Assembly: GCF_031458255.1 (NCBI RefSeq)
Contig: NZ_JAVDYC010000001.1
Coordinates: 1,178,001 to 1,242,000 of the forward strand
Reading direction: 5' to 3'
Source: Catenuloplanes niger
GTDB taxonomy: Bacteria; Actinomycetota; Actinomycetes; Mycobacteriales; Micromonosporaceae
Length of the DNA stretch: 64,000 bases
Under the pieces are notes generated by a model. It ran no database searches, had not been told where the DNA came from, and worked only from the letters and a program-made list of their open reading frames with translations. Both the position numbers and the translations under genes were made by a program. Position 1 is the first letter of the stretch; each line of letters opens with the position of its first letter. Positions 9,069 through 53,395 of the stretch are shown here, piece by piece.

Positions 9069-9417
9069 GTCGCCCACCTCCGTGCGGATCGGTCCCGGTC
9101 CGTTCGCGCGGTCGCTCCGGAGACGTACACGGTATGTCGTAGCCGGCGAATCCGATGAAGGCGTGCCAAAGACGTCACATGCGGCGGGCCTGTGGTCGTG
9201 GACACCGGCGGGGAGCCGGACCGGACCGGTATCTCCGGTGAGACCGCGGCATAGGTGTCATCGCCGATGTCGGTACGGCCCGGCGCGGCTTCTCTGGCGT
9301 CGCCTTCGCCCGGTGGCCGGCGCGATCGCGGCCCGTGTTGTTAGGCGACAGACACGGATACGGGCAACCCCCGCCGGTTGGGACAGTCGAATTGCCCGAC
9401 ACGGAAGGAGGCCAACG
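9069..9417. other. Intergenic region between NB-ARC regulator and SDR operon
   Basis: About 350 bases between divergent genes. The only thing recognised is the regulon-like motif at 9342-9361; the rest shows no coding bias or repeat. Confidence 0.5.
9342..9361 (+). promoter_or_regulatory. Regulon-like motif upstream of the SDR operon
   Basis: TAGGCGA, CAGACA, CGGATAC, 56 bases before the first SDR start. It differs from the consensus second half by one base. Confidence 0.5.
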
Positions 9418-27212: not shown

Positions 27213-27735
27213 CCGAATACCTGCATCGCTCTCGCCATAACCCGAATAAGTCACTGAGCGACGTCAACTGATCGTCGTGTCCCGATTTCCACAACCGCAG
27301 TTGCGGGACGCCTGGTCCACGCAACCGCGCGACCGCGCCCACCCGAGCGAGCCCCGGCTCAAATCTGACGCGCATGGACGATATCGCCGTTCGGACAAGC
27401 AGACTGCGCGCCCGAGCCCCATCCGGCAAGTCGATGTCCGGGAGATGGCGGGGCACCGGGCATCAGCTCTCGCGCCGGCCGCGTCAGCGATCTTCGTGCG
27501 ACCGTCGTCCAAAACAGGACGCCAGGGCTGGCCGCCATCGACACGGATCCGAGCGCCTTCCAGAACTCCACTCGACAGTCGACTTGAGGCGACATTTCCT
27601 CTAAAATCACCCAAAATTTGCACCCGCCATCCGCACGACCATCCCGCCAATAGGCATCAGGACTTCACCCGCAAGGTAACAAGAAGTATCTTTACGCCCA
27701 CGGATTGCTTCGGTTGCCGGCTCGGGACAAGGTGG
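27213..27735. other. Leader region of the DISARM-like operon
   Basis: About 520 bases without a supportable gene; the open frame upstream of 27736 has non-coding composition. Around 27590-27720 the DNA turns A/T-richer than its surroundings (TCTAAAATCACCCAAAATTT, then AACAAGAAGTATCTTTA), which suits the operon promoter. I could not define a -35/-10 pair with confidence. Confidence 0.4.
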
Positions 27736-28251
27736 ATGGCGTACAACAAGTTCAACCATCAGGGCTACTTCGGAGAGAGCTTCGTCCGGGTGCTGGTCAG
27801 TGCCGCCGGCCTGATCGCCGGCCAGCAGGATGTCGATCACACCGGTGTGGACTTCTCGATTGATCTTCCCGGCGTTCGGGGCACGGCGCGATTTCCCAAG
27901 ATCGAGGCGCAGGTCAAGTCATGGTCCGCGCCCAAGGGTAACGATCTCTACTGGCAGTACCCGATGGAAGTCGGCAACTACAACAACCTGGCGGGTGAGG
28001 GGTTCTCGGTGCCCCGCTATCTGTTCCTCATCGTCGTGCCGGATGACGTTGACCAGTACGCACACGTGGACGAGACCGCCACGCGGCTCAGCCACTGCGG
28101 CTACTGGGCGTCCCTTCGCAACCTACCGGTGATCGAGGACGGTTCCCAGAAGACGATCACGGTGCGGGTGCCGAAGCAGAACCTGTTGACCGTCAAGGCG
28201 CTCCGCACTCTGCTGCAGCCGGTGCCGATTCAGCGGGTGCCCGCATCATGA
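27736..28251 (+). CDS. DUF4365 domain protein
   Basis: A 171-aa protein of the DUF4365 family. Seen are the opening G-Y-F-G-E-S-F-V-R-V-L-V-S-A-A-G-L, a D-x-T-G-V-D-F-S-I-D segment and I-E-A-Q-V-K-S-W. The spacing D(x)n-E-x-Q-V-K resembles a PD-(D/E)XK nuclease core, as proposed for this family. DUF4365 proteins recur in defence loci. ATG 27736 is chosen because the family begins there; AAGGTGG lies immediately upstream. Its stop overlaps the next start (ATGA), so the two are translationally coupled. A nuclease role is inferred. Confidence 0.75.
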   Translation: MAYNKFNHQGYFGESFVRVLVSAAGLIAGQQDVDHTGVDFSIDLPGVRGTARFPKIEAQVKSWSAPKGNDLYWQYPMEVGNYNNLAGEGFSVPRYLFLIVVPDDVDQYAHVDETATRLSHCGYWASLRNLPVIEDGSQKTITVRVPKQNLLTVKALRTLLQPVPIQRVPAS

Positions 28252-29363
28252 CCCCCGTCAGCGCGGATGAGCTGCGCACCGCCGAGGCACTTGAGCCCGA
28301 GGCCTTCGCCCAGTACCTGTCGACCACCGGCTGGTCTCTTGCACAGCAGCTCGAACGAGCGACCCTATGGACTCGCAGCGAGACCGATGGAGAGTTTCAG
28401 GTGCTGGTGCCCGGGGACCGGGCTCTCCGGGACTACGCAAGCCGGGTGTCCGATCTCCTCGCCACGGTCGCCACCGTCGAGGAACGACCGGTTCGGCTAC
28501 TGCTCGACGAGCTGGAGTCCGGCGGTGTCGACACACTCTCGTTCCGGCTCCTGCCCGGCGGCCCCTCCGGCACCATCCCGCTGTTTAACGCGACCGATGC
28601 GCTTGCTGGTGTGAAGGAGCTCGTCGTCTCATCGACCTTCTCCCTGCTGAGCCCCGAACCGATGCTCGTACAGGGGCGCCGGCCAGACGCGGTGCTCGAC
28701 TTCGCGAAGTCTGTTCGGCTCGGAACGCCCCGGGCCGGAAGCTGGGCCATCGCGGCACAACTGGCCCTGCCCGACAACGCAACGAACGGCGAGATACCTC
28801 TAGCCCGTCAGGTGGCACTGCGGATGCACAGCGCGGTCCGTGCGTGCTACGCCGCGTCCGGTGAGGCGTTGCGCGATTACGACATCGGGCTCTTCCTCAG
28901 TCGTACCGGCGAAGGGGTCTCCTCGAATGTGTGCGATGCGCTCGCCAAGCTCGGTCGGGACAACGTCCCGTATGACATGCGGTTCAGCTGGGCACGGTCC
29001 CTGCCGGCCAGCGTTCCCGCGCGCTCGTTCCGCTTCAATGCCGCCAGGATCGAAGTGCTGCGGACTGCCGCCGAGCAGCTAAAGGTTGCGGTCCCGGACG
29101 GTGAAACCACGATCGAGGGTACGGTCAGCAAGCTCCGGCGGGATATCGGCGAGGGCGGTCAGGCCACGGTCCGCGGTCCGCTCTCGACGGCCTACGGCTC
29201 GTCGGAACGCCCGGTAAGGGTCTTGCTGCCCGATCACCTGTACCAGAGCGTCGTCAGCGCGCATGGACGCCAGCAGCAGGTGCGCATCACCGGGGTTGCT
29301 GTGCGAGGCCGCATCGAAAGGGTAACCAGCGTCGAGATACTGGACGAGACAACGCAAATATGA
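28248..29363 (+). CDS. Unknown protein in DISARM-like operon
   Basis: A 371-aa protein I do not recognise. It has no signal peptide or membrane helix. Mixed alpha/beta composition, with regularly spaced hydrophobic segments and a C-terminal beta-rich part (V-R-I-T-G-V-A-V-R-G-R-I-E-R-V-T-S-V-E-I). Its start overlaps the DUF4365 stop by four bases, and the SNF2 helicase follows 145 bases later on the same strand. Position implies it is a dedicated component, possibly a partner of the DUF4365 protein, and not a shared housekeeping gene. Confidence 0.75.
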   Translation: MTPVSADELRTAEALEPEAFAQYLSTTGWSLAQQLERATLWTRSETDGEFQVLVPGDRALRDYASRVSDLLATVATVEERPVRLLLDELESGGVDTLSFRLLPGGPSGTIPLFNATDALAGVKELVVSSTFSLLSPEPMLVQGRRPDAVLDFAKSVRLGTPRAGSWAIAAQLALPDNATNGEIPLARQVALRMHSAVRACYAASGEALRDYDIGLFLSRTGEGVSSNVCDALAKLGRDNVPYDMRFSWARSLPASVPARSFRFNAARIEVLRTAAEQLKVAVPDGETTIEGTVSKLRRDIGEGGQATVRGPLSTAYGSSERPVRVLLPDHLYQSVVSAHGRQQQVRITGVAVRGRIERVTSVEILDETTQI

Positions 29364-29508
29364 GGTCTCTGCCAGCGACGATTCCCTCTTTCGGCTGATA
29401 GGCGCAACAACCGAACGACGGCAAAGAATCCGTACGTGCGGTTCCATCCGGCTGTGTTGATCTGGATACGATCAACGCTGCCCAACGACTGACAGAGGTG
29501 AGGCGACC

Positions 29509-32373
29509 ATGAGCGAGAATCGTTCCGGGGAACCGCTGGAAATAGCGCCGGGGTCGGTTGTGGTCGTCCGGGACGAGGAGTGGCTCGTCCAGACTGCCGA
29601 GGACACAGCGGACGGACTGCTCATCCGGGCCCGAGGCCTCAGCGAGCTGGTCCGGGACACCACTGCCGTCTTCTACAGGTCGCTGGACCGCATCGAGCCG
29701 CTGGACCCGGCCGAGGCACTCGTCGTGGCCGACGACAGCCCGAAGTACCGCCGGGCGCGCCTCTGGCTCGAATCCACGTTCCGCAAAACCGCGGTCCCGC
29801 TCGGCGATGAATCCCTCTCCGTGTCCACGCAGGCGCTGGCCAAGCCGCTGCGCTACCAGCAGGCCGCTGTGCGCAAAGCGCTCGATCCGGCCAATCTTCG
29901 GCCACGGATCCTGCTGGCCGACGCGGTCGGCCTGGGCAAGACCCTCGAGATCGGAATGATCCTCTCCGAACTCGTCCGGCGTGGCCGCGGTGACCGCATC
30001 CTGGTCGTCACCCCGCGCCACGTCCTTGAGCAGATGCAACAGGAATTGTGGTCGCGTTTCGCGTTGCCGTTCGTCAGGCTCGACTCGGCGGGAATTCAGC
30101 GGGTTCGGCAGAAACTGCCGGCGAACAGGAATCCTTTCACCTATTTCCGTCGTGCCATCATCTCCATCGACACACTGAAGTCGGAGCGGTACGCCGCCAG
30201 CCTGCGTAAACAGCGGTGGGATGCGGTCGTTATCGACGAGGCGCACAACCTCTCCAACGCGACCACACAGAACAACAAGCTGGCGCGGACTCTGTCGCGA
30301 AACACCGAAACGCTGATCCTCGCCTCAGCGACGCCACACAACGGCCGGGCGGAGTCGTTCGCCGAGCTCATCCGGCTGCTCGACCCGTCTGCCATCCCGC
30401 CGAACGGCGAGCTGATGGATGCCGAGATCAAACGTCTCCGCGTCCGCCGCCACCGGCACAGCCCTGAGGTGGCGGGTGAGGTCGGCGCCGACTGGGCCGA
30501 ACGCCGCGAACCGGAGAACATCCTGATCCCGGCCGGTCCCGCGGAGAACGCGGTCGCCGCGGAGCTGGAGCACGTCTGGCTGTGGCCCTCGAACGAACGC
30601 ACCCCGTACTCCGGCCAGAACGCATCGCTCTTCCCATGGACTCTTGCCAAGGCCTTTCTGTCCTCACCGGCCGCCCTTGCCGAGACGGTCAAACAGCGTA
30701 TAGATCGACTCGGCGCTGAAGCTGCGGCAAAGGCTGAGCGAGTTGCTCTGGAGCGGCTTGCCGCGCTCAACGCGGTCTCCCAGGCCGAGGGCTCCGCCAA
30801 GTACGCCCGCCTGATCTCGCGGCTTCGAGAGCTCGGCGTCGGCAAGGGATCGTCGACGCGTGCCGTTGTCTTCGCGGAACGGGTCGCCACCCTCACCTGG
30901 TTGCACGAGCACCTACCCGCCGACCTCGGCATGCCGGCCGAGGCGGTCGAGATCATGCACGGCGGGCTGCCGGACGACGACCAGCAGCGGGTCGTCGACG
31001 CTTTCAAACAAGCACACACGCCGGTACGGATCCTGGTCACCGGCGATGTGGCCTCGGAGGGCGTCAACCTTCACTCGCAATGCCACGAGCTGATCCACTA
31101 CGACATTCCGTGGAGCCTGATCCGGATCGAGCAGCGCAACGGCCGGATCGACCGCTACGGCCAGCTGCATCCGCCGGGCATCACCACGCTGCTGTTGGAG
31201 CCGTCCGGCGGCCGGTTCGGCGGCGACATCCGCATCCTTGCGAAGCTGGTCGACAAGGAGAACGAGGCGCATCGCGCGCTCGGTGACGTCGCCTCGCTCA
31301 TGGGCGAGTACGACGTCAAGGGCGAGGAGGAGGCGATTCGCGCTGTCCTCTCCGGCCGGAGAAAACTCGACGACGTGGTCCGCACCCCGGACGACGTGCT
31401 GGCCGGCGGCGATTTGGACGCCATGTTCCTCGGGTTCCTCGACGACGACACGGACGAGGAGGAATCACGGGACGTCACCACCACGCCGGGTTCCGGGCTC
31501 TACCCCGACGACATCTCATACCTCGACGAGGCCCTGCACACCGCGTTCATCGACCCGGCGGCGCCGCTCAGCAACAGCGGCGTCTCCTGGCGGCGTGACC
31601 CTGCCTTCGGCACCGCGGAGCTGACCCCGCCGCCGGACCTGATCCAACGCCTTGACGTGCTGCCGCAGACCTACCTCGCCGACCGCCGCGTCACCGATAA
31701 GCTGGTGCTGGCCACCACCGTCGCCCGCGGCATGGACAGGATGACCGAGGCACTGCGGGACGACAACGGATCGAGCTGGCCGGACGCGCACTATCTGAGC
31801 CCGCTGCACCCGGTGCTCGACTGGGCCTCCGACCGGGCGCTGTCCGGGCTGGGACGCAACGAAGTCTTCGCGGTGCGGGGCGGCGTGGACGCGCCGACCG
31901 TCATGTTGCTGGGAACGCTGACGAACAAGCGGGGGCAGGTCGTCTCCGCGGCCTGGATGACCGCCGAGTTCCCGATGCCGGACGATCCGTCGTTCGCACT
32001 GGTGACGCCGCATTCATCGGCAGCCGATGCACTGGCCGCGCTTGGCTGGGACAGCGTCCGGTCCAACCCGGGACCGGTGGCCGGCGCCGGTGAGCTTCGT
32101 CGGTTCATCCAGCCGGCGGTGGCCAACGCCCGCGTACAGATGCGCGACCTGTTCGCCGCCGCGGAGAAGGATGTCGCGCACCGGGTCGAGGAGTGGTCCC
32201 GCCGGCTCGCCCAGTGGCAGAACGATGCCGATGCGCTCATCCAGCGCAGCGACCTCAAACAGCGGCGGGTCAGCATCAAACAGGAACAGCATCTCGTCGC
32301 CGAGATGAATCCGGACCGGCAGCTGGTACGCCCGCTGCTGGTCGTCGTTCCGTCAACGGGAGAACAGGTATGA
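29509..32373 (+). CDS. SNF2-type helicase (DrmD-like)
   Basis: A 954-aa superfamily-2 helicase. Motif I is A-V-G-L-G-K-T at about residue 137-143, motif II is V-V-I-D-E-A-H-N near 240, and motif III is L-A-S-A-T-P-H-N-G. Motifs V/VI read V-A-S-E-G-V-N-L-H and I-E-Q-R-N-G-R-I-D-R-Y-G-Q near 535-550. This is the SNF2/RapA-like pattern of DISARM DrmD. It probably translocates on DNA. ATG 29509 has AGAGGTGAGG upstream. Its stop overlaps the methylase start by four bases (ATGA), so expression is coupled. The DrmD label rests on order and motifs, not on a database match. Confidence 0.85.
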   Translation: MSENRSGEPLEIAPGSVVVVRDEEWLVQTAEDTADGLLIRARGLSELVRDTTAVFYRSLDRIEPLDPAEALVVADDSPKYRRARLWLESTFRKTAVPLGDESLSVSTQALAKPLRYQQAAVRKALDPANLRPRILLADAVGLGKTLEIGMILSELVRRGRGDRILVVTPRHVLEQMQQELWSRFALPFVRLDSAGIQRVRQKLPANRNPFTYFRRAIISIDTLKSERYAASLRKQRWDAVVIDEAHNLSNATTQNNKLARTLSRNTETLILASATPHNGRAESFAELIRLLDPSAIPPNGELMDAEIKRLRVRRHRHSPEVAGEVGADWAERREPENILIPAGPAENAVAAELEHVWLWPSNERTPYSGQNASLFPWTLAKAFLSSPAALAETVKQRIDRLGAEAAAKAERVALERLAALNAVSQAEGSAKYARLISRLRELGVGKGSSTRAVVFAERVATLTWLHEHLPADLGMPAEAVEIMHGGLPDDDQQRVVDAFKQAHTPVRILVTGDVASEGVNLHSQCHELIHYDIPWSLIRIEQRNGRIDRYGQLHPPGITTLLLEPSGGRFGGDIRILAKLVDKENEAHRALGDVASLMGEYDVKGEEEAIRAVLSGRRKLDDVVRTPDDVLAGGDLDAMFLGFLDDDTDEEESRDVTTTPGSGLYPDDISYLDEALHTAFIDPAAPLSNSGVSWRRDPAFGTAELTPPPDLIQRLDVLPQTYLADRRVTDKLVLATTVARGMDRMTEALRDDNGSSWPDAHYLSPLHPVLDWASDRALSGLGRNEVFAVRGGVDAPTVMLLGTLTNKRGQVVSAAWMTAEFPMPDDPSFALVTPHSSAADALAALGWDSVRSNPGPVAGAGELRRFIQPAVANARVQMRDLFAAAEKDVAHRVEEWSRRLAQWQNDADALIQRSDLKQRRVSIKQEQHLVAEMNPDRQLVRPLLVVVPSTGEQV

Positions 32374-35300
32374 GCGTGTCCGACGCGATCCTGGTCGGCG
32401 AGGCCTGGATCTCCGAGCACTACTTCACCACCGAGACCACCAAGGAGTCGTTCCAGGCGAAGGTCCTGGAGCGCCGCAAGGAGTGGGACGCCGAAGCAGC
32501 CGCTGGGCGCCGCACGCCGCGCAGCCGGTTTACCGAGGCGCGGCTGGAACTGGAAGCGGACCTGGCCAAGCTCACCGAGCTAGCCGACGTCGAAGCCGAC
32601 CTCGGGGTAACCGACCGGCACACCACCGACGACGCGCTCGCGTCGATCTACGAGCGGATCATCGGCCTCCTCGAGCTGCGCGACCACGGCCTGAATGTTC
32701 AAGAGAACGGGCCGATCCTTCGCGTCTCTGCGCCGGGCATCACCGACCGCGCGCCACTCGCCGTCGTGCGCGCTCAACCAGCCGGCACGGTCGAGGACGT
32801 GCTCGCCAAAGATGGGCCCACACTGGCCGCACCGGTACGCCTGGACGAGGACGGCGACGAGCTGACCTCGGCCGCGCGTCTGGTGTCCGCGCTGTTCCGC
32901 GAGGACGACGCACCCAGCCTGATCCTGATCCTGGCCGGCCGCTGGGCGGTGCTGGCCGAGCAGGAACGCTGGGCAGAGGGCCGCTACCTCGCCGTCAACC
33001 TGCAGCTCATCTGCGAGCGCAACGACACCAAGCGCGGCGGCGAGATCGACCGCGCCCTGACCTGCCTGAGCGCCGAATCGATCGCACCCGACGGGGACGG
33101 CAGCCTGTGGTGGAACGGCGTCCTCGAAGAGTCGATCAAGCACACGGTCGGCGTCTCGAAGGACCTCCGCGACGGCGTCCGGCTCTCCATCGAAATCATC
33201 GCGAACGAGGTCGTCCAGCGACGCCGCGCCAAGGGCCTCGACCCGCTGCCAGCCACCGAGGCCCAGCCGCTGGCCAAGCAGTCGCTACGGTTCCTCTACC
33301 GCATCCTCTTCCTGCTCTACGCCGAGGCGTCGCCCGAACTTGGCGTACTGCCGATCGGCGCCCCCGAGTACGACCAGGGCTACAGCCTCGACCGCCTCCG
33401 CGAACTCGTCCAGGTCGAGCTGGCCACCCCGCGCGCCCGCGCTGGCACCCACCTCTACGAATCCCTCGGCGTGCTCTTCCGGCTGGTGGACCAGGGTCAC
33501 GTGCTGGAGGAGCCCGACGAGGAGGCGCTGACCACGCAGGGCCTGACGTTCAACCCGCTGCGCGCCGACCTGTTCCGCCCCGAGGCGACCGCGCACATCG
33601 ACGAGGCCGGCCTCGGCAACGCGGCACTCCAGCAGGTTCTCACCCACCTACTGCTGAGCAAGGAGAAGCGAGGCAAGGACAGAGGCTTCATCTCGTACGC
33701 GGAGCTGGGCATCAACCAGCTCGGCGCGGTGTACGAGGGACTCATGTCGTACACCGGCTTCTTCGCCGAAACCGACCTCTACGAGGTGGCGAAGGGCGGC
33801 GACGGCAGCAAGGGCTCCTGGGTCGTGCCGGTCTCCCGGGCCGACGGCATCGCGGCCACCGACTTCGTCAAGCAGCTCAACGTGGCGACCGGCGAGATGC
33901 AGCCGGTGCTGCACGAGCAGGGATCGTTCGTATTCCGTCTCGCCGGCCGCGAACGCCAGCAATCCGCCTCGTACTACACCCCCGAAGTGCTTACCAGATT
34001 CACGGTCGGGCAGGCGCTGGAAGAGCTCCTCACCGAGGAGACCCGCGCCTCAGAGATCCTCGAGATGAAGATCTGCGAGCCGGCACTGGGCTCCGGCGCC
34101 TTCGCAATCGAGGCGGTCCGGCAACTCGCCGAAGAATATCTCAAGCGCCGCCAGGCCGAGCTGATCGACGAGGGCAAGCGAATCGACCCGGACGATTACC
34201 CGCGCCGCCTCCAGGAGGTCAAGGCCTACCTGGCGCTGCACAACGTCTACGGCGTCGACCTCAACGCCACCGCCGTCGAACTCGCCGAAGTCTCCCTCTG
34301 GCTCGACACGATGGTGCAGGGCCTTTCCGCTCCTTGGTTCGGCCTGCACCTGCGGCGCGGAAACTCGCTGGTCGGTGCCCGTCGCGCCGTCTACACGCGC
34401 AAGCAGGTGGCCGACAAGTCGTGGCTCGGCGCGGTACCAACGGAGGTGCCGCTGACACCGCTGCGTGAGGACATGGCGGAGCGCCGGGTCGGCACCGATG
34501 GCATCCACCACTTCCTCCTCCCCGCCGACGGCTGGGGCTCCGCCGCCGACGCCACGGAGGCCGCGAAGCTCGCCCCGGAAGCCGCGAAGGCGCTCAAAAC
34601 CTGGCGTGGCAAGACCAAAACGAAACCCACCAAAGCCCAGCTCGACGGGTACGCCGAACTGGCGCATCGCGTCGAGACACTGTGGCAGATCGCCTGGCGT
34701 CGCTTGGACATCGCCGAGAAGTCAATCCGCCGCGACATTCCGGTCTGGGAGGCCGGCCCTCTCGACGACGGCGCCACCATCCAGCGCGAAGAGATCGAAC
34801 GCGCGCTGGCCGACGAGGGCGGTGCCTACCAGCGACTGCGCCGAGTGATGGACGCCTGGACGGCCCTTTGGTTCTGGCCACTCACCGAGGCCGCCGCGAC
34901 AGTGAACGGCGTGGTGATTACGCCTCCGACGACCGAGCAGTGGATTGCCGGTCTTCAAGGGCTTCTCGGCCGGAACCCCGACGTTCGCAAGCGCGGCAAG
35001 TCGGCCGAGACATCCTTCAGCGCGGACATGGACTGGCACGCGCTAAACGAAGCCGAGCCCCTCGAACTTGGCCTCGCCAGCGCAAACTCCATCGGCGAAG
35101 TACTTCGCGATCACCCCTGGCTCGTCGTCTGCGAACGCATCGCCGAACGCCAGGGCTTCTTCCACTGGAACCTCGACTTCGCCACCGTCTTCGCCCGCGG
35201 CGGCTTCGACCTCCAGGTTGGAAACCCGCCTTGGGTCCGGCCACGGTCTGACGTGGATGCGCTGCTTGCCGAAGGCGACCCTTGGTGGCAGCTCGCCCAG

Positions 35301-40000: not shown

Positions 40001-43000
40001 ACCTGCCGCTCGCTCACGCCTGGCAGCGTCGCCGCCGTCGAGCAGCTCGACGGCGCGCCGTGCATGCTCGTCCGCTGCCGTGGCCGACTCACCAGGGAAC
40101 CGCTGCCGGACAACTTCTATCGCCGCCTGTACGCGTCTCCGGACATGCGGCGGATCGTGGCCCGTGAGCACACCAGCCTGCTCGACGACGAGACCCGCGT
40201 GCGGTACGAGGAGGGTTTCAAGAGCGCCGCGACGGTGCCTCAGGCGCCGAACGTCCTGGTCGCCACGCCCACGCTGGAGATGGGTATCGACATCGGCGAC
40301 CTGTCCACCGTGCTGCTCTCCTCACTTCCACGGACCGTCGCCTCCTACCTGCAGCGTGTCGGCCGTGCCGGCCGTCTGACCGGCAATGCGCTGAATCTGG
40401 CCTACCTGACCGGCCGCGGCGACCAGCTCCCCAAGCTGGGCGAGCCACTGTCGGTGATCAACGGCGAGGTACGGCCACCAGCCATTTATTTCCAAGCCGA
40501 GGAGATCCTTCGCCGCCAGTACACCGCCTGCTTGGTCGACGCCATGGCCCGCGATCCGCTCCGCAAGCGGCCTAGAAGCGCCGGCGGGGCGATGGGGTCA
40601 AGCGATCGGGACTCGTTCCTCGGCGATCTGATTGCCGCCGCCGAGGCGGGTGGACAGCAAGCGGTCGAGCGTTTCACCGACTCGCTCGCCCCACTCCCGC
40701 AACAGGTCATCGATGATCTGAAGGGCTGGGTACGGCCGATCGCCGGCGCGGGCACGAGCATGTTCGCCGCTCACGTGCACACGGCGAGCCGTCGCTGGCA
40801 GGTGACGGTGGAGACGCTCAAGCTGCGCGAGAAGGAACTCGCGAAGGTGATCCCCGAGTTGGAGGCCAAGGAGCAGTCACCGGCAGCCACCGACGACGAC
40901 CGGCGCGCGCTCCGATCCGCCCGGGCGACCCGCTCGCTGACCCAGGGGCAGCTGGCCCACCTCCGCGGCGAGTACTGGATCGGCGTGCTCGAAGAATACG
41001 GCCTGCTGCCCAACTACACGCTGCTCGACGACACCGTCACGCTGGACGTGGGCATCAGCTGGACCGACCCGGACTCCAACGACTTCCGAAACGATCACGC
41101 ACAGTTCCAGCGTGGGTCAGCCCAAGCGATCCGGGAGTTCGCGCCCGGCGCCACGTTCTACGCCCGTGGCTGGGAGATCGCGATCGACGCGATCGACCTG
41201 GGCATCGACGGCGAGTCCATCCGCCCCTGGACGTTCTGCCCTGCCTGCGGCTTCGCCGTCGACACCGCGGCCTCCGGCCAAGAGCGGCAGGTCACGGCGT
41301 GCCCACGGTGCGGCAGCACCGGGATCGCGGACACCGGACAGCGGCTGGACGTGGTCGAGCTCTCGCACGTCTCGGCCGAGGTCCGACGGGACGAGGCGAT
41401 GATCTCCGACCGCCGCGACCAGCGGGAACACATTCCGTTCCAGGTCATCACGGCGGCCGACATCGATCTGGGCAACATGCAGCGACGATGGTTCGCCGAG
41501 GACACCGGGATCGGCTGCACCTACCTGCGCACGATGGATCTGCGCTGGATCAATGTGGGCGTGCCCGGGCACGGCGCCACCCGGATCATCTCGGCCGACG
41601 AACGTACCGGCTCGCTGTTCCGGGTCTGTTCCGGGTGCGGCAAGCTCGACACCGACACAGGCCGGAACAAGCCTCACGAGCATCGTGCGTGGTGTCTCTA
41701 TCGGACGGCGATCACGGAGAGCACGGCGACGATCGCATTGTCGCGCACGTTGCGCACCCAGGGCCTGCTGATTCGTCTCCCGCATGCGGTGACCCTCGGC
41801 GACGACTTCGCCGTGCCCAGCATCGCCGCTGCGCTTCTGCTCGGCCTGCGCGAGCAGGTCGGCGGGCATCCCGATCACATCCGGGTCGAGCACGTCATCG
41901 ACCCGACGCTCAGCGACGGCACGGACAACCACGACGCGCTTCTCCTGCATGACGTGGTGCCCGGCGGCACTGGATACCTGGCCGATCTGGCCGCTCCGGA
42001 GCAGCTCCGCGAACTGCTCGATCTTGCATGGGAGCGAGTACGCAGATGTGAGTGCCAGTTTGAGGAGCGGCTAGCCTGCCATCGCTGTCTGTTGCCGTTC
42101 GCCGCACCGGCTGCTGTACGGCGTACCTCACGAGCGGCAGCCGTGCGTCACCTCAGCGCTTTGCTGGGCCTCGCGGATGACGCGGAGTCGACCGACGGGC
42201 CTGCCTGGAGGATCACCGAGACCCCACCCCAGGATGATCCCGAGTCTCACCTCGAACAGCGGTTCCGAAAGGTCTTCCTGGAGGGGTTGAAGGCCGCTGG
42301 TGCTGCCATCACCGAAGTCCCGAAGGCATGGGGGAATGCGCTGCGGTTCACCCTGCCTGGTGCATCTCGCCAGTGGACGCTTACGCCGCAGGTCAATCTC
42401 GAGAACTCGAGGCCAGACTTCGTTCTCGAGTCGAACGACACTTCTGTTCCTGCGGTCGCCGTCTTCACGGACGGCCGCTCTTTCCACGCGGTCGCCTCGC
42501 GTAACCGGTTGGCGGATGATGCAGAGAAGCGTGGCATCCTGCGCGATACCGGACGGATCGTCCTGGCGATCAGCGCACAGGACATAACAGATGCGGAGCG
42601 CGGCACGGTCGCCGCCCCGAGCTGGTTCGTACCGGCTGCGGTGGCGAAGCTACTCAAGCAGCAGCAGTTCCTCACGACCCCGGCGGCGTACGACGGCCTT
42701 CGCGCCGGGCCGCTCACCTGGCTGCTCAACTGGGTGGCAGAGCCGAAGCCGGCGGACATCGGCATCGTCGCCAGAGCGGTACCGATGTTCATGCTCACCG
42801 GCCAGAAACCCCATAAGGTCGCCGACGGCGTCAGTCTGGCGACCGCCGGACGGGCGGCGCTCCTCGGAGAGGAAATCCCGGCTGGCACCCGATCTGTGGT
42901 GATCAAGCAGTTCGGCTCCCTCGCCGTGGTCGTCGAGTCCGCTGCCTCAGAAATCGGCGTCGCGCTCGTCCTCGACGACCGAGACGAGATGCTCGACACG

Positions 43001-43447
43001 GCTCACGCTGGCGCCTGGCGGCTGTGGCTACAACTCGCCAACGCGCTCAGCCTCCGCGACTGGCCGACCGTCATCACCACAACGAGCCTGACGGTGCAGC
43101 AGACCAAGACTCCTTCCCCGAAGACCGAGGCAGAAGCGGACGCCTTGCCGGCGGGGACCGACGAAAGCTGGCTGGCTCCCTACGAGTCGGCAGCACCGGG
43201 CATCGAGCGCCAGCTGATCCGTCTGCTCGCAGAGCACGGCGGCATCCAGGCGCCAGTCGTCGGGGCCGAGGGTCCGCAGGGCATCCCGATGGACCTCTCC
43301 TGGCCGGATCGGCAGGTCGTCGTCGCCGTCTACGACATGCCGGACGAAGACCGGGCCGATCTGACTGCCGCGGGCTGGGTCGTGGTGGAGGCTGAGCTGG
43401 CAACCATCATCGCGGCGCTGGCCCCGACCGAACTTCTGGAGCACTGA
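37076..43447 (+). CDS. Giant DEAD-box helicase with DUF1998 and nuclease-like tail (DrmA-like)
   Basis: A 2123-aa SF2 helicase. Motif I is T-G-T-G-S-G-K-T near residue 103-110, motif II is L-D-E-F-H-T-Y near 232, and motif VI is Q-R-V-G-R-A-G-R near 1093. Several Cys pairs suggest zinc ribbons (C-R-H-C, C-P-S-C, C-P-A-C with C-P-R-C, C-S-G-C). The DUF1998 segment G-G-T-G-Y-L-A-D-L with C-E-C-Q-F and C-H-R-C-L-L lies near 1630-1690. A tail at about 1720-1845 contains R-P-D-F-V-L then V-A-V-F-T-D-G and D-A-E-K-R, like Vsr/PD-(D/E)XK nucleases. It may combine DrmA and DrmB roles. GTG start overlaps the methylase stop. Confidence 0.85.
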   Translation: MSELLPTVQAANVRHSLVDYLTTTFALTDSDARDGLDRFLSEPVNGMFKGPYVRLRLPFRPADEGWREHLDWYEGHNPYGHQAGAFARLSSRAGHRPKPTLVTTGTGSGKTEAFLHPILDHVRRARLEGVTGTKALILYPMNALANDQAKRLAGLLTSHSELSSITAALYTGQKGKPRTMVSADGLITDRGIIRDSAPDILLTNYKMLDQLLLRHDDQGLWQQSATSLRYLVLDEFHTYDGAQGTDVAMLLRRLGLALKSHWHDDDPGLSSEDRARPLGLITPVATSATLGDKGDPGAMLSFAETVFGENFPPEAVVVESRQTLDEWVGDAAATVDAAGFTAPHDFPIAEIRDAVEAFGTDPDGEALARTVLGRLWNGPEDRLATAGPELLLALTKANQLVQELAFECVDAVSLDDLVRRIGGQAGRRTSSLAAGNVDEDWTTVISAVVATLGHVRALVGRDALSVEVHLWVRELTRIDRAADTTASFRWGDDGPPVAGGDTEDVRPSFPAVHCRHCGRSGWGVALAPVGTSLAVDDESIRRNHATREGRFRALLYAPAEAGAAYAGGGLSEGLAWFSVRGRELRYEVPADDDPELRDGWILPVLTSAGKDADKDARDDNCPSCGQADGIRFLGSAIATLVSVSLSTLFGSAAVDVQEKKALVFTDSVQDAAHRAGFVEARSHTLTLRAALHAAVAAGSISLDMLVEEAIQQTGRDAFQRYRLLAPDCADRDSFAPFWTTSALRGVPAPVMRRVRRRLALDVALEFGLNSRVGRTLELTGAAAVEVAAGAPARMAAAARAALHGFTLQNALDADSGEPSDDALVQWVRGVLDRMRVQGAIDHPWFVTYRQEDGRRYSIWGGRPRADGMPAFPRDRPAPAYPRVGGAADSGGDNLDAVTSSQSWYAQWTSRVLPVSPADGGRLARLLFDRLVRDGVLTATTSQSGATVYGIPASGVVVIPTSTDDLAAGHHMLACDTCRSLTPGSVAAVEQLDGAPCMLVRCRGRLTREPLPDNFYRRLYASPDMRRIVAREHTSLLDDETRVRYEEGFKSAATVPQAPNVLVATPTLEMGIDIGDLSTVLLSSLPRTVASYLQRVGRAGRLTGNALNLAYLTGRGDQLPKLGEPLSVINGEVRPPAIYFQAEEILRRQYTACLVDAMARDPLRKRPRSAGGAMGSSDRDSFLGDLIAAAEAGGQQAVERFTDSLAPLPQQVIDDLKGWVRPIAGAGTSMFAAHVHTASRRWQVTVETLKLREKELAKVIPELEAKEQSPAATDDDRRALRSARATRSLTQGQLAHLRGEYWIGVLEEYGLLPNYTLLDDTVTLDVGISWTDPDSNDFRNDHAQFQRGSAQAIREFAPGATFYARGWEIAIDAIDLGIDGESIRPWTFCPACGFAVDTAASGQERQVTACPRCGSTGIADTGQRLDVVELSHVSAEVRRDEAMISDRRDQREHIPFQVITAADIDLGNMQRRWFAEDTGIGCTYLRTMDLRWINVGVPGHGATRIISADERTGSLFRVCSGCGKLDTDTGRNKPHEHRAWCLYRTAITESTATIALSRTLRTQGLLIRLPHAVTLGDDFAVPSIAAALLLGLREQVGGHPDHIRVEHVIDPTLSDGTDNHDALLLHDVVPGGTGYLADLAAPEQLRELLDLAWERVRRCECQFEERLACHRCLLPFAAPAAVRRTSRAAAVRHLSALLGLADDAESTDGPAWRITETPPQDDPESHLEQRFRKVFLEGLKAAGAAITEVPKAWGNALRFTLPGASRQWTLTPQVNLENSRPDFVLESNDTSVPAVAVFTDGRSFHAVASRNRLADDAEKRGILRDTGRIVLAISAQDITDAERGTVAAPSWFVPAAVAKLLKQQQFLTTPAAYDGLRAGPLTWLLNWVAEPKPADIGIVARAVPMFMLTGQKPHKVADGVSLATAGRAALLGEEIPAGTRSVVIKQFGSLAVVVESAASEIGVALVLDDRDEMLDTAHAGAWRLWLQLANALSLRDWPTVITTTSLTVQQTKTPSPKTEAEADALPAGTDESWLAPYESAAPGIERQLIRLLAEHGGIQAPVVGAEGPQGIPMDLSWPDRQVVVAVYDMPDEDRADLTAAGWVVVEAELATIIAALAPTELLEH

Positions 43448-45573
43448 TGCCGACCATCATCATGACCAAGTGGCCGCTCAAGATCGACGGTTCGGTCAAG
43501 GCGAAGGCGATGACGTTCCTGCAGAAGCTGTCGGAGGACGACACGATGCCGGGCCTGCACGTCGAGCCGATCGCTCATGCGGCCGATCCGCGGGTACGGA
43601 CGGGCAGGGTCGATCAGTTCTGGCGCGCCGTGATGTTTCGCCTCGACGGCGAGGGCGGCAGCCACTACGTGGTCCACGGGGTGTGGCCGCACGACGACGC
43701 CATCTCCGTCGCGCACCGCGTACGCCTGAAGGTCAATCCGATCAACGGCCTGCCGCAGATCGAAGAGACCGAGCAGCCCAGCTCTCCTGCCGTACCGCCG
43801 AAGCCTCAGGTTGTGGAGCCGCTTCTGCCGAGGCTCGGACGGACACTCGGCGACCTGGTGGAGCGGCTCGGCATCCCCGAGGAGGTGGCGGAGCAGGCGC
43901 TCGCCGCTCCGGACGAGGACGCGGTCCTGGAGCTGGCGCAACGCCACGAGGGCTGGCTCGGCCTGCTGCTGGTCGACCTGACGGGTCGGGATCCCATCGA
44001 CACGATCGCCGACCGGCTTCAGCTAGAGGCGCCGGAACAGACCGGCGACGAAGACGCCGACCTGCTCGTGTCGCTGAAGAAGCCGGGCGCACAGTCGCAG
44101 TTCGCGTTCATCGACGGGCAGGAAGAGCTGCGCCGTGTCATCGAGGAGGACGACTTCGGATCTTGGCGCGTGTTCCTCCACCCGGAACAGCGTCGATACG
44201 TGTCCCGCTCCTACTCCGGCCCGTTCCGGCTCTCCGGCGGTGCCGGCACCGGAAAGACCGTCGTCCTGATCCATCGCGCCCGCTCCCTGGCCCGCCGGAA
44301 TCCGGCAGCCCGGATCGTACTGACCACCTTCACCACCAATCTTGCCGAGTCGCTGAAAGACGGGCTTGCCCAGCTCGATCCCACCGTGCCGCAGGCCGCC
44401 AAACTCAACGACCCTGGCGTACACATCGCCGGGGTCGATGCGCTGGCGGCCTCCGTGATCCGCTCCGCGGGCAGCGCCATCGCAGACGCAGTACAGACCG
44501 TCCTCGGAGACGCCCGCTCCGCGCCCACCGGGCGCACGCCGAGCGGGCGCTGGCGGGAGGTCGTCGAGTCCTCCGGCACGACGCTTCCTGCGGAGATCGC
44601 CAACGAAACCTTCCTCAGCGCGGAATACGCGCTGGTCGTTCTCCCGAACCAGGTCAAGAACGAGGATCAATATCGGCGGGTACGACGTCCAGGGCGTGGC
44701 GTGGCGCTCGATCGGGCGCGACGAGATGCGGTATGGGCGTTGATCGCGGCATATAGGGCGCAGAGCCGCATTGACGGGACGCTCGACTTCTCCGAGGCTG
44801 CCGCGGTCGCCGCCGCACATCTCGCCGCGGCCGGCGGCGCAGCCGACCACGTCTTGATCGACGAGGGGCAGGACCTCTCGCCGTCGCACTGGCAGATGGT
44901 TCGCGCGCTGGCCGACGAGGGCGCGGATGATCTGTTCATCGCCGAGGACTCCCACCAGCGCATCTACGGCAACCGGATCGTCCTGGGCCGGTACGGCATC
45001 CGCATCGTCGGCCGTTCGCAACGACTCACGCTCAACTACCGCACCACCGCGCAGAACCTCCGCTACGCGATGGCGATCCTCGACGGCGGCGACTTCCTCG
45101 ATTTGGAGGAAGAAGCCGAATCGACCGGCTACCGGTCCGCCCGTTCAGGACCCGAGCCGGCTGTGGACGATGCCGGCTCGCTGATCGCCGAGCTCGACAT
45201 CATCGCCACCCGAATCAAGGCATGGCTCTCCATGGGCACCCGTCCTGAGACAGTCGCGGTACTCGTCCACGACAAGCTGCAGCGGGAGCGGGTCGTCAAC
45301 GCGCTCACCGAGCGAGGTGTCCCGGCCAGGGCGGTCGACCGCGACCGGCCGACTGACGGCCGGGTGCTGGTGATGACCATGCACCGCGCGAAGGGCATGG
45401 AGTTCGCCAAGGTCGTCCTGGCCGATGTCGGCTTCCAGTCCGCCGCGGAGAAGGAACGGTTGAAACGCCTCGACGACAGCGAACGCCGCGACGCGGAGCT
45501 TCGAGCCCGTTCCCTGGTCTACGTGGCTGCGACGCGCGCCCGCGACGAGCTGGCGGTGGTGCAGCGGAGGTGA
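43447..45573 (+). CDS. UvrD/Rep-type helicase-like protein
   Basis: A 708-aa superfamily-1 helicase. Residues ~1-100 form a separate domain with D-P-R-V-R-T-G-R-V-D-Q-F-W-R-A-V, similar to RelE/ParE-like folds found at the head of some defence helicases. Walker A G-G-A-G-T-G-K-T is near 264-271, Walker B is V-L-I-D-E-G-Q-D-L, then L-N-Y-R-T-T, M-H-R-A-K-G-M-E-F and the last motif Y-V-A-A-T-R-A-R-D-E-L. The start overlaps the previous stop (TGATG), so it is the last coupled gene of the operon. Unwinding or ssDNA translocation is expected; the N-terminal role is unclear. Confidence 0.85.
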   Translation: MPTIIMTKWPLKIDGSVKAKAMTFLQKLSEDDTMPGLHVEPIAHAADPRVRTGRVDQFWRAVMFRLDGEGGSHYVVHGVWPHDDAISVAHRVRLKVNPINGLPQIEETEQPSSPAVPPKPQVVEPLLPRLGRTLGDLVERLGIPEEVAEQALAAPDEDAVLELAQRHEGWLGLLLVDLTGRDPIDTIADRLQLEAPEQTGDEDADLLVSLKKPGAQSQFAFIDGQEELRRVIEEDDFGSWRVFLHPEQRRYVSRSYSGPFRLSGGAGTGKTVVLIHRARSLARRNPAARIVLTTFTTNLAESLKDGLAQLDPTVPQAAKLNDPGVHIAGVDALAASVIRSAGSAIADAVQTVLGDARSAPTGRTPSGRWREVVESSGTTLPAEIANETFLSAEYALVVLPNQVKNEDQYRRVRRPGRGVALDRARRDAVWALIAAYRAQSRIDGTLDFSEAAAVAAAHLAAAGGAADHVLIDEGQDLSPSHWQMVRALADEGADDLFIAEDSHQRIYGNRIVLGRYGIRIVGRSQRLTLNYRTTAQNLRYAMAILDGGDFLDLEEEAESTGYRSARSGPEPAVDDAGSLIAELDIIATRIKAWLSMGTRPETVAVLVHDKLQRERVVNALTERGVPARAVDRDRPTDGRVLVMTMHRAKGMEFAKVVLADVGFQSAAEKERLKRLDDSERRDAELRARSLVYVAATRARDELAVVQRR

Positions 45574-45622
45574 CTGGCGGTGGTTCGCGCCATCCTCGCC
45601 CCGCTGATCGGGCCAGCAGACC

Positions 45623-45648
45623 ATGCCTCCCGCACATCGGGGAGGCAT
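45623..45648. terminator. Hairpin between convergent helicase and PHP-SMC genes
   Basis: ATGCCTCCC and GGGAGGCAT, perfect nine-base arms with an eight-base loop, 50 bases past the UvrD stop. Probable terminator of the defence operon. Confidence 0.65.
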
Positions 45649-45652
45649 CGTC

Positions 45653-48271
45653 TCACCGAGCCGCGCGGTACCGCCGTGCGCGGTCCTGGAATGCCTTGTC
45701 ACCGCCTTCGAGGATCTGACGAGCTGCGTCCGCTACCCTCGGCTCGTCGATGGCGCCGCAGGCGACGACGGTGCTCTGGTCGATGTTGGCGTCCAGTGCC
45801 ATGATCATCTCTGCATCACCGAGGATCGGGATGTTGGGGTTGTGGGTCGCCACGATGATCTGGCGCCGGTTGGCGACTTCGGCGAGCTGACGCACGACCT
45901 GGTCATAGATGTATCGGTTGTCGAGGTCGTCCTCGGGCTGGTCGATAATCAGAGGGTTGTTTCCGGTGACCAGCGCGAGGGACAGCATGGCGGTGGCCTT
46001 CTGCCCAGGGCTCACCTTGCGCACGTCGAGCCAGCGGGGCTGTTCGGGTTCGCCAAGGTTGATCTCGACGACGATGAAGTCTGGGGTGGCGCACTTCTCG
46101 ATATCGCGTACCCCAACTGGGGAGAGCTCGCGGAGCTTCCCAGCGGTGGACTTGCTCACGCCCAGCTTGACCAGCTGGTCCTCGTCGCCGCGGATCGCGC
46201 TGGCTACCTGCGCGGGCCCAGCGTCCGCCAACTTGACCAGCTGATCTCGGTTGATGTACTTCCCCACAACAAGGGTTACCAACAACTCGAGCAGGTCGTC
46301 GCGGTCTGCCAGCGGCCGCACTGTCACCCGCACACGTCCACCGACGGTGGACGACACTGTGGTCGCCGCTGCCTGCAAGAGCTGCGAGATCGTTCCGCGG
46401 ATATCACGGAGCGACTCGAGCTGAGCGATATACGTGGTACGCAGTTCCTCCAGGCGCTGTCGCTGATCGGGGACCTTGGCTACGGCACGTTCGAGTTGAG
46501 CTGCCGTGCGTTGCAGGCGCGCCAACTCATCGGGATCCCTGAGTCCAGCATCGGCCAGTGCCGCGTTGATCTGATGCCGACGTTCCTGGACCAGGGCGTT
46601 GTGCTCCGCGACAGCGGGTCCCACAGCGTTCTGGGCGATGCGTGCGGCGTCGGAAATCATGGTGGCCGCGGCGAGTATCGCGGATCGCACCTGAGCGGTC
46701 GCAGCGGTCAGGGCCGGAGGAACGCTGTCATGCGCGCGAATATCCGGTGCCTCGGCTGCGGTCTCAACTCGGCCGGCGAGCGGCTCGATTTCAGACAGCC
46801 AGGTGACCGTGGCTGAGACTTCCTCCTGTACTGCGGTGAGTTCGCGGGAGGCCTCGACCTGTTGCGCCGCTCCCCGCTGGCTGGCGGTCTCGAGCTGGTC
46901 GCGTACGTCCTTTAGCTTCTCCTCGTTGTCCACGGACTTCGCCAGCGCGGATTCGAGCGCGCCGAGCTCGGCGCCGAGCTTCTCAAGCTCCCGAAGAGAA
47001 GCACTCTCCCGCGTCTGCGCGCCTTTCAGCTCCGGATCGGCGGAGATTGCGAGAAACTCGCGGAGCCCGTCCTGATCGTCGGGGAGCAGAGCGAGCTCGC
47101 GCTGGCCGTAAACGCTGATACCGAACCGGCGGTTCACGTCGATGCCGGTGTCGGCGCCGTTGCGGAGAAGTTGAGGTGGCGTGTCATCGCCGGACCGCAC
47201 GATCTCGTAGATCAGTCGGTCTCCAGTGACGATGTCGAGGCGCGCGGTCGCGTTGGCCGAAAAGTTGGCGATCCGGTTCTTATGGTTGTCTGACGTCTTC
47301 GGCGCAGCCCCTGCGCACACGTGGCGCATGATCTCGATCGCGGTGGACTTTCCGGTCCCCTTGCCTCCGATGATGGCGTTGAGGCCTGGCCCGAGTTCGA
47401 CAGCGAGGCGATCGTGAAAGCCACCTTCGACAGTCAGACGCGTCATGCGTGGCCAGGTGGGCTCCGTGTCGTCGATGAATCGCAGGCCTGGGACCCGGCC
47501 GAACTTCGTGCGAAGGTGCTCGGGAAAGCGAATGCGCTGTTCGGGCATGAGGAACGCCTGGCGCAGGCCTTCCAGCGTCGGGGGCGTGCCGAGCTTCAGA
47601 TAGACGGCGCGTTTGCCGACCGTCTCGAAGTCACGGACGTCACCCGAGACGAACCAGGCCGGAACGTCGTCGCCGAATTCGTAACGGGGGTTGCGCAGGA
47701 CCTCTGCACCCTCGTCTCCCCAGACATCGAAGCCGACGACGAATCCGCTCTGCGCAACCTGGCTGCTGATGTTGCACACGCTGCGCGCGAAGAGCCCGAT
47801 GCCCTTCGCGGTGGAGTGCGGAGCGAGCACCAAGGCGCCGTACTTCGTTGCAGCAAGCTTGACCAGCTCGAGCGGCGAGCCCGTAGAGGTAGGGCTCGGC
47901 TCCCGCCGCGCGCTCAGCGCGGGCGGCCCGTCCGGCGGGAACAGCACGTCCAGAAACTGGAGACCGCGCCGATAGCCGTCCTCGTTGCACTCCCAGATTG
48001 CCATCAGGTGGCACTTGTTGACGTTGAACTCGATCCCCGGAAACACCACCACGCCGTGCCGGCGCCCCGCTGCGGCAAGTTCCGGATACCAGGCCAGGGT
48101 GTTGTGATCGGTCACCGCGATGACCGTCACGCCAGCATCCGCGTGCGCCTTGACCAGCCGGTCTGCGAAGGTCTGGTTCGGCGTCGGACCGCCCACGTCG
48201 CCGTACTTCTGGTGAAAATCGGCCGGCGTATGCACTTGCAGATCGGCCAGCACCCATCGGGAGTATCCCAC
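45653..48271 (-). CDS. PHP-domain / SMC-type ABC ATPase (TrlF-like)
   Basis: An 872-aa fusion. The N-terminal ~230 residues are a PHP phosphoesterase: D-L-Q-V-H-T at 9-14, V-T-D-H-N-T-L, G-I-E-F-N and A-P-H-S-T supply likely metal ligands. Then comes an SMC/RecN-like ATPase with Walker A G-G-K-G-T-G-K-S-T near 300, a coiled-coil-rich middle, signature V-S-P-G-Q-K-A, Walker B L-I-I-D-Q-P-E-D-D-L and H-loop A-T-H-N-P-N. The arrangement matches TrlF-type PHP-ATPases. An ATP-gated nuclease or phosphodiesterase role is inferred. It converges on the helicase operon and may be an added module. ATG 48271 taken; no strong ribosome site. Confidence 0.85.
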   Translation of the reverse strand: MGYSRWVLADLQVHTPADFHQKYGDVGGPTPNQTFADRLVKAHADAGVTVIAVTDHNTLAWYPELAAAGRRHGVVVFPGIEFNVNKCHLMAIWECNEDGYRRGLQFLDVLFPPDGPPALSARREPSPTSTGSPLELVKLAATKYGALVLAPHSTAKGIGLFARSVCNISSQVAQSGFVVGFDVWGDEGAEVLRNPRYEFGDDVPAWFVSGDVRDFETVGKRAVYLKLGTPPTLEGLRQAFLMPEQRIRFPEHLRTKFGRVPGLRFIDDTEPTWPRMTRLTVEGGFHDRLAVELGPGLNAIIGGKGTGKSTAIEIMRHVCAGAAPKTSDNHKNRIANFSANATARLDIVTGDRLIYEIVRSGDDTPPQLLRNGADTGIDVNRRFGISVYGQRELALLPDDQDGLREFLAISADPELKGAQTRESASLRELEKLGAELGALESALAKSVDNEEKLKDVRDQLETASQRGAAQQVEASRELTAVQEEVSATVTWLSEIEPLAGRVETAAEAPDIRAHDSVPPALTAATAQVRSAILAAATMISDAARIAQNAVGPAVAEHNALVQERRHQINAALADAGLRDPDELARLQRTAAQLERAVAKVPDQRQRLEELRTTYIAQLESLRDIRGTISQLLQAAATTVSSTVGGRVRVTVRPLADRDDLLELLVTLVVGKYINRDQLVKLADAGPAQVASAIRGDEDQLVKLGVSKSTAGKLRELSPVGVRDIEKCATPDFIVVEINLGEPEQPRWLDVRKVSPGQKATAMLSLALVTGNNPLIIDQPEDDLDNRYIYDQVVRQLAEVANRRQIIVATHNPNIPILGDAEMIMALDANIDQSTVVACGAIDEPRVADAARQILEGGDKAFQDRARRYRAAR

Positions 48272-53043: not shown

Positions 53044-53086
53044 TCTGAGATGGCTTGCCATGACGGCGGGCTGGAAGGATGTTGCT

Positions 53087-53395
53087 GTGCCCAAGCCCTA
53101 CCCCCGTGAGTTCCGCGATGACGTCGTGCGGGTCGCCCGTGACAGGGACCCCGGCGTGACGGTCGAGCAGATCGCGAAGGACTTCGGGGTCCACCCGATG
53201 ACGTTGTTCAAGTGGCTGCGCCAGGCCGGCATCGAGGAAGGCGCCCAGCCCGGTGCGAGCCGCAGCGACTCGGTCGAGCTGCGTGAGGCCCGTAAGCGGA
53301 TCAAGCTTCTCGAACAGGAGAACGAGGTCCTGCGCCGAGCCGCAGCATATTTGTCGCAGGCGAACCTGCCGGGAAAAGGCTCTACCCGCTCGTGA
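53087..53395 (+). CDS. IS3-family transposase OrfA
   Basis: A 102-aa DNA-binding protein. It begins P-K-P-Y-P-R-E-F-R-D-D-V-V-R-V-A, with the HTH V-E-Q-I-A-K-D-F-G-V-H-P-M-T-L-F-K-W-L, and ends in a leucine-zipper-like helix (L-L-E-Q-E-N-E-V-L-R-R). GTG 53087 follows GGAAGG at good spacing; a longer frame from 53060 is less likely. It binds the IS ends and is fused to OrfB by -1 frameshifting. Confidence 0.9.
   Translation: MPKPYPREFRDDVVRVARDRDPGVTVEQIAKDFGVHPMTLFKWLRQAGIEEGAQPGASRSDSVELREARKRIKLLEQENEVLRRAAAYLSQANLPGKGSTRS
53371..53380 (+). other. Probable -1 ribosomal frameshift site (OrfA to OrfB)
   Basis: GGGAAAAGGC. Slipping back one base on AAAA moves the ribosome from G-K-G-S-T-R-S-stop into K-R-L-Y-P-L-V-N-E-L, the standard beginning of OrfB in this group, so a fused OrfAB transposase can be made. 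Confidence 0.65.

Follow-up and report, generated by a model that had tools for sequence, protein, structure and literature searches.

A locus at positions 27736–48271 of a 64,000-nucleotide stretch of Catenuloplanes niger DNA (contig NZ_JAVDYC010000001.1, positions 1,178,001 to 1,242,000; hereafter the window) is probably best explained as an ARMADA Type II operon that has been co-inherited with a two-gene front module, the PADLOC candidate pair PDC-M02A/B (here M02A and M02B, together M02AB). That four of its genes (ArmA-ArmB-ArmC-ArmD) make up an anti-phage operon of ARMADA Type II is very likely, and M02AB is likely to be a separable module co-inherited with it in the window's clade. For functional cooperation between M02AB and ARMADA II, which we infer from these patterns, we would give slightly less than an even chance.

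A check of the open reading frames (ORFs) in the window found seven at this locus, all present and uninterrupted at the coordinates given here. A first-pass annotation had read the first six as one coupled train and the seventh as convergent. M02A (171 aa; 27736..28251, + strand) and M02B (371 aa; 28248..29363, + strand) overlap by 4 nt, and ArmA (29509..32373, + strand), ArmB (32370..37079, + strand, with its ATG at 32370), ArmC (2123 aa; 37076..43447, + strand) and ArmD (43447..45573, + strand) overlap by 1–4 nt each. The gene caller placed the M02A start at 27736, which fits its homologues, in a frame open from 27277. Between M02B and ArmA, however, lies a gap of 145 nt (29364..29508, + strand, measured to the upstream ATG), so the locus is not one seamless train, and the seventh gene, encoding a PHP-SMC ATPase, is convergent with ArmD. 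The ORFs of the proposed train were thus all intact, while its continuity was not upheld. The genome carrying the window is a single 9.74-Mb contig with one full copy of the ArmC gene. No ArmC match was found in four other genomes of the genus within the limits used in the search, indicating that the locus is accessory.

Profile searches matched the four Arm genes one-to-one and in order to ARMADA Type II, and M02AB to PADLOC PDC-M02. ArmA is a DrmD/BrxHII/RapA-like SNF2 helicase that matched the PADLOC models for DrmD (3.4e-92) and BrxHI/BrxHII (2.8e-54). In NCBIfam it reached 334.8 bits for DrmD, under the cut-off of 610, and also matched a RapA model; its motifs are intact (GLGKT at 141, DEAH at 243). 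ArmB is a PglX-like DNA methyltransferase whose best PADLOC model was a type IIG enzyme (REase_MTase_IIG, E = 0 across residues 2–1566), followed by DrmMI (3.5e-56) and PglX (7e-7). The PglX models of PADLOC and NCBIfam matched it weakly, below cut-off, and both GSGAF at 573 and NPPW at 951 are intact. ArmC is a YprA-family helicase with a fused DUF1998/MZB region: Pfam found DEAD, Helicase_C and MZB domains, with DEAD and MZB above cut-off (MZB 40.9 bits vs 24.2). At its C-terminus D, DG, H and KR residues are invariant in 17 aligned sequences, a D...DG...H...KR pattern that we take to be a Vsr-like motif; a comparison of this region with PDB sequence profiles gave no Vsr match and returned one engineered repeat protein only. 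ArmD is a UvrD/GajB-like helicase (Pfam UvrD 4.3e-19; GajB among its PADLOC matches) with a putative RelE/YoeB-like N-terminal domain. A profile of 23 ArmD N-termini matched the toxin-like chain 2khe and YoeB chains at 0.0019–0.005, with one unrelated match ranking better (0.0014), and the Pfam ParE models each matched 1 of the 23, none of them the window's ArmD.

According to the main text of a September 2025 preprint (PMC12458937), ARMADA Type II consists of these four gene types in A-B-C-D order, with a RelE-like domain before the helicase of the last gene. A BrxHII/RapA-like ArmA, a PglX-like ArmB with NPPW, a DUF1998 YprA helicase, a UvrD gene after the YprA gene and the gene order all agree with that description. 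Walker and NPPW motifs are intact in the window; K110 and D234 of ArmC are numbered identically to their mutated counterparts in that work, other motif positions lie within ~32 residues, and the same main text assigns a Vsr-type nuclease to the ArmC C-terminus. ARMADA is also mentioned in the covered parts of PMC13192584 and PMC12904381. The locus had been proposed as a DISARM-related yet distinct anti-phage system; this is sound as far as the four genes go, except that the system already has a name.

A 700-aa ArmC segment was searched against 300 genomes of the window's family and matched 61 of them, comprising one group at 63–82% identity, with 23 genomes in addition to that of the window, and another at 31–36%. 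The four genes stood in A-B-C-D order in all close loci (24/24, window included), one of which was split over two contigs, one had a truncated ArmA and one was frameshifted. A wider search matched 43 of 397 genomes of the order, and 57 more loci were included. The 92 ARMADA II loci, counted as ArmC rows, belong to one bacterial order, with one on a plasmid; gene calling in the fetched loci relied on a simple script whose training set was the seven genes of the window. In 69 of the 92, all four Arm genes shared the strand of ArmC. Only ArmC-ArmD was seen in 17 loci, mostly of the kinase lineage described below and some at contig ends; across L134, L139, L141, L142, L153, L155–L158, L161, L163 and L166–L169, either further genes were called between ArmB and ArmC or ArmA/ArmB was not seen within ~11 kb before ArmC. 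Assignment of the 31–36% loci to ARMADA Type I was rejected, since the first ten fetched show ArmC then ArmD, preceded by ArmA and ArmB wherever the sequence shows that region, which makes them Type II.

The position directly before ArmA, which we call the front slot, held a kinase in 28 loci, a DrmA-DrmB pair in 17, M02AB in 9 and none or another gene in 14; the remaining 24 of 92 ArmC rows had no assignable slot and are left out of the slot counts. The none/other class includes L134 (a 537-aa ArmC-matching piece), L138 (where ArmA is preceded by a DrmB piece together with three further genes) and L140 (a divergent kinase). Slot labels are BLAST or hidden Markov model (HMM) matches to a few representatives, with a PADLOC/Pfam check for a single representative each of the DrmA-DrmB pairs, the kinases and the methylases. 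DrmA-DrmB was set by hand in six rows: G036, G333, G244, G007 and G253, where a small gene of divergent orientation separates DrmB from ArmA, and G161, whose ArmA is truncated. M02AB was likewise set by hand in G215, which is split over two contigs.

The slot contents followed lineage. Mapped onto an ArmC tree built with FastTree, in which several long branches carry flags, the slot changed 6 times, against a shuffled mean of 34.8. All loci with M02AB in front fell within one supported clade of 11, and the kinase loci formed one side of one branch. In the sister clade (63–70%) the slot contained, in 13/13 loci, two proteins from different clusters, one of them a helicase; the front pair from one of these matched DrmA (5.3e-102) and DrmB (6.7e-31), and a small divergent gene stood between pair and ArmA in 5/13. 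The Tsukamurella plasmid NZ_LR134452.1 (L124) carries a DrmA-like gene, a DUF1998 gene and then the ArmA-B-C-D genes. Arrays with DrmA-DrmB before ArmA-B-C-D (L030, L026, L028, L042, L048 and related loci; L124) are DISARM/ARMADA hybrids in layout and occur in several families of one order. Among the ten 31–36% loci, a Ser/Thr kinase filled the slot in all eight with a visible ArmA (Pfam Pkinase 7.7e-40 for the one kinase checked). The kinase-ArmA gap was -4 to 66 nt in 27/28 loci and 246 in one. In this group (L105:368-3405 and other 31–36% loci) the kinase is sometimes preceded by a second gene, which in the one checked is an N6-methylase with MADS-like matches.

M02AB lay directly before ArmA in 9 of the close loci and behind ArmA-D in 3, and was not found in 12 (n = 24 loci). 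The nine front copies share position and strand and all belong to the window's clade of 11. The three rear copies, one of them convergent, are among the 13 sister-clade loci, and all three of these loci also have DrmA-DrmB in front. Near ARMADA blocks we saw M02B 12 times (67 loci) against a rough chance expectation of 0.08, a figure that assumes an 8-Mb genome and an even spread and ignores defence-island clustering. Pairwise protein distances in eight complete loci correlated with those of ArmC at r 0.95 for M02A and 0.92 for M02B, vs 0.97 for ArmA, 0.945 for ArmD and 0.83 for ArmB. In 7/8 loci of a named collection, the window not among them (Actinoplanes-group, Micromonospora, Salinispora, Spirilliplanes), M02AB was followed by ARMADA genes or by a contig end inside them.

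M02AB also occurs in other company. The best PADLOC M02B model had matches in 58/300 family genomes and 0/14 control genomes; of 68 M02B matches, 52 are covered by the window or the fetched loci and 16, mostly weak or fragmentary, were left out. Most fetched M02AB loci outside ARMADA had no such system as a neighbour, although 'alone' is used loosely here, since in L080, which was given this label, a divergent gene of the DrmMI-like cluster adjoins M02AB. Four loci (L052, L053, L054, L057) have M02AB, a small protein and then a HerA/mad8-like double ATPase of ~1030 aa, whose family was checked in L053. Two (L078, L079) have M02AB behind a run of DrmMI, DrmA and a 677-aa gene, with the identities of DrmMI and DrmA checked in one of them, and one locus has it after DruE and a cytosine methylase. 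A Rugosimonospora locus (L056), the eighth of the named collection, carries M02AB without ARMADA; this M02AB is 71–73% identical to the ARMADA-linked kind and adjoins MzaC/MzaE-like genes. M02B-like genes at 23–32% identity are also carried by 14 plasmid records from several phyla; in 2/3 of the records inspected, the annotation places a DUF4365 gene beside the M02B-like gene. Of 40 fetched loci outside ARMADA, eight gave no M02B row by the BLAST rule and are absent from the M02B tree. On that tree M02B must have switched between ARMADA and other settings at least 3 times, a pattern compatible with more than one association of M02AB with ARMADA. A pattern scan of genome contigs with M02B alone gave no match, and neither did scans of viral contigs for M02B and M02A.

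M02A is a DUF4365/DREN-type PD-(D/E)xK nuclease by its matches to Pfam PF14280 (1.9e-18) and PADLOC PDC-M02A (3.5e-68). Its D39, Q59 and K61 are invariant (16/16 aligned sequences) and are the counterparts of the catalytic DREN residues D41/Q60/K62 (PMC12205087) and Q62/K64 (PMC10810196) as given in the covered parts of those papers. The predicted M02A model was modest (mean predicted local distance difference test score, pLDDT, 53), and its four best PDB matches were SPARDA chains (E 0.0023–0.051); the PDB sequence profile gave a weak unrelated match (0.024) and, at 1.1, a DUF4365 protein. SPARDA itself was rejected as an identity because M02A is the nuclease domain only, lacking APAZ, and the seven proteins gave no Argonaute-type Pfam match. 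M02B matched PADLOC PDC-M02B (1.4e-115) and no Pfam or NCBIfam model at 0.001. Its PDB sequence profile returned a repetitive antifreeze protein and weaker, unconvincing matches, whereas its C-terminal domain (residues ~284–369) matched oligonucleotide/oligosaccharide-binding (OB) folds in the PDB by Foldseek, with SSB and PriB foremost. The covered part of PMC12205087 describes the DREN domain of SPARDA as inactive alone and switched on by assembly, and by analogy this suggests that M02B may be the assembling part for M02A. The PDC-M02 pair, whose name occurs in no paper of the library searched, gains a likely catalytic component, the DREN nuclease, and a possible component for binding nucleic acid, the OB fold.

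A stand-alone nuclease system that travels beside ARMADA in a defence island, with no interaction between the two, is a serious alternative, though its probability falls somewhat below one half. Under it one would read the gap before ArmA with its promoter-like element as a true boundary, and the variable positions and strands of M02AB beside ARMADA, together with the M02B-like plasmid genes and the many M02B rows outside ARMADA, as signs of independence. A promoter-like stretch before M02A (27684..27735, + strand) is conserved in a nine-locus alignment, and the M02AB module probably has its own promoter. Within the gap, positions 29456–29476 carry an inverted repeat, GTTGATC/GATCAAC, around a TANNNT box; in an eight-locus alignment the window has the complete repeat and the other loci retain part of it. 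It is possibly an operator or promoter. What argues against mere cohabitation is the same place and strand in 9/9 linked loci of the window's clade, distances that follow ArmC, and the further association of M02AB with YprA-type systems (ARMADA, DISARM-like and Druantia-like).

Several results nonetheless count against an ARMADA II operon with a co-inherited M02AB module. M02AB is missing from two loci of the window's own clade, and 32 of 44 rows of the M02B tree are not beside ARMADA. The M02B-ArmA gap measures 124–196 nt by the gene caller, with the promoter-like element between, and the E. coli ARMADA II was effective with four genes alone (main text of PMC12458937). In several more distant loci extra genes were called between ArmB and ArmC (e.g. 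L134, L139, L141, L142, L153, L161, L163), so that the A-B-C-D order is not strict everywhere, and the ArmC tree holds only the loci of this analysis. The predicted M02B model was poor (mean pLDDT 46) and confident only near the C-terminus. In another structure comparison of M02B, metal-binding SilF chains were the best-scoring OB folds and sugar-binding OB folds were also listed, so the fold does not in itself imply binding of single-stranded DNA.

The main text of PMC12458937 reports that in E. coli loss of any one of the four Arm genes abolished protection, which was direct and non-abortive. Extending that work to the present core, ArmB methylase activity would be required, probably for self-marking, and the ArmA, ArmC and ArmD motors would act on unmarked phage DNA and stop its replication, so that the cell survives. 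ArmC would probably cut DNA through its Vsr-like C-terminus. If M02AB does cooperate with ARMADA II, the M02B OB fold might bind single-stranded DNA that the helicases or phage replication expose, with M02B holding or activating M02A, a DREN nuclease that would be silent alone and cut DNA once assembled. This OB-fold and nuclease mechanism for M02AB is tentative, and we would rate it below an even chance by a clear margin. A still broader view, speculative and rather unlikely, is of ARMADA II as a modular chassis with exchangeable front sensor/effector modules: the DREN nuclease with its OB-fold partner, DISARM DrmA-DrmB, or a Ser/Thr kinase that may come with an N6-methylase. M02AB would then be a second tier: where the direct, non-lethal core failed, single-stranded DNA exposed by the core or the phage and bound by M02B would lead to assembly of M02A into an active collateral DREN nuclease.

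What looks new here is the arrangement of M02AB with ARMADA II and the lineage-wise difference in the front slot, the core itself being an already named system. Neither is in the covered main text of PMC12458937, figures and supplements apart, where the words DUF4365, DREN and kinase are likewise absent, and no paper listed in the literature searches described either in its title or abstract opening. The slot contents (nuclease pair, DISARM helicase pair, kinase) are natural variants that could be swapped in the laboratory to reveal the role of the slot.

We consider it very improbable that the locus is a class 1 DISARM variant in which drmC was lost and drmA and drmB were fused. The matches of ArmA to DrmD and ArmB to DrmMI bear out the first two roles of the drmD-drmMI-drmA order in the first-pass annotation, but the third is less well placed, as the YprA helicase is nearer DruE (PADLOC DruE3 8.9e-83, 277 bits) than DrmA (1.3e-18, 64 bits; NCBIfam DrmA 23 bits vs a cut-off of 999). 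The top PADLOC model of ArmB is the type IIG enzyme rather than DrmMI, and no NCBIfam DISARM model matched at cut-off. A separate drmB and the phospholipase-D gene drmC, reported missing at the outset, were indeed absent from the PADLOC matches listed, and Pfam gave no phospholipase-D match in the seven proteins; it gave no match to the BREX PglZ phosphatase either. Finally, the DrmA-DrmB pairs before ArmA-D in the sister clade indicate that ArmC is no replacement DrmA. Still less credible is a single seven-gene system with the TrlF-family PHP-SMC protein (45653..48271, - strand) as effector, because this gene, although adjacent to ArmD and separated from it by 79 bases, is convergent with it, and it was found in 0/23 other close loci (22 of which extend 2.7 kb or more past ArmD) and in 0/181 fetched loci, with the gene found in the window as control and many loci ending before that point downstream.

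The PHP-SMC protein matched NCBIfam NF045780 (TrlF family) at 406.7 bits, above the cut-off of 350. Ppl was its best PADLOC model (5.1e-34) and was rejected as an identity at 157.1 against a cut-off of 1000 for NCBIfam NF042955; the literature searched for TrlF and Ppl yielded nothing usable. The complete seven-gene set recurred in none of the 23 other close loci, and the added proteins do not form one set, with M02A/B a separable candidate pair and the PHP-SMC gene a neighbour. Also near the locus, the window encodes a TPR protein with a TCAD9-like stretch (22662–26138) and an HTH/NB-ARC/TPR protein (6792–9077). Two adjoining ORFs at 53060–54255, the second with an rve integrase core, are probably an insertion-sequence transposase.

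Compared with known systems, the locus is closest to ARMADA Type II, with which it shares the four gene types, their order, the catalytic motifs and the fused DUF1998, and possibly the Vsr-like ArmC motif and the RelE-like UvrD N-terminus. It differs in having a DUF4365 nuclease and an OB-fold partner before ArmA, whereas the E. coli system, in the main text of PMC12458937, has four genes. Like PADLOC PDC-M02, it has adjacent A and B genes with strong model matches; PDC-M02 is listed there as a candidate, and in the window it is linked to ARMADA II. M02A shares the DUF4365/DREN domain and catalytic residues with SPARDA (DREN-APAZ and a short Argonaute), but it has neither APAZ nor Argonaute, and its partner ends in an OB fold. 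The SNF2 helicase, PglX-like methylase and YprA helicase come in the same order as in DISARM class 1, from which the window locus differs by its fused DUF1998, DruE-like helicase, added UvrD protein and lack of DrmC. With Druantia, the likeness lies in DruE3 as the best PADLOC match of ArmC, while no Dru protein is among the PADLOC matches listed for the other proteins of the locus.

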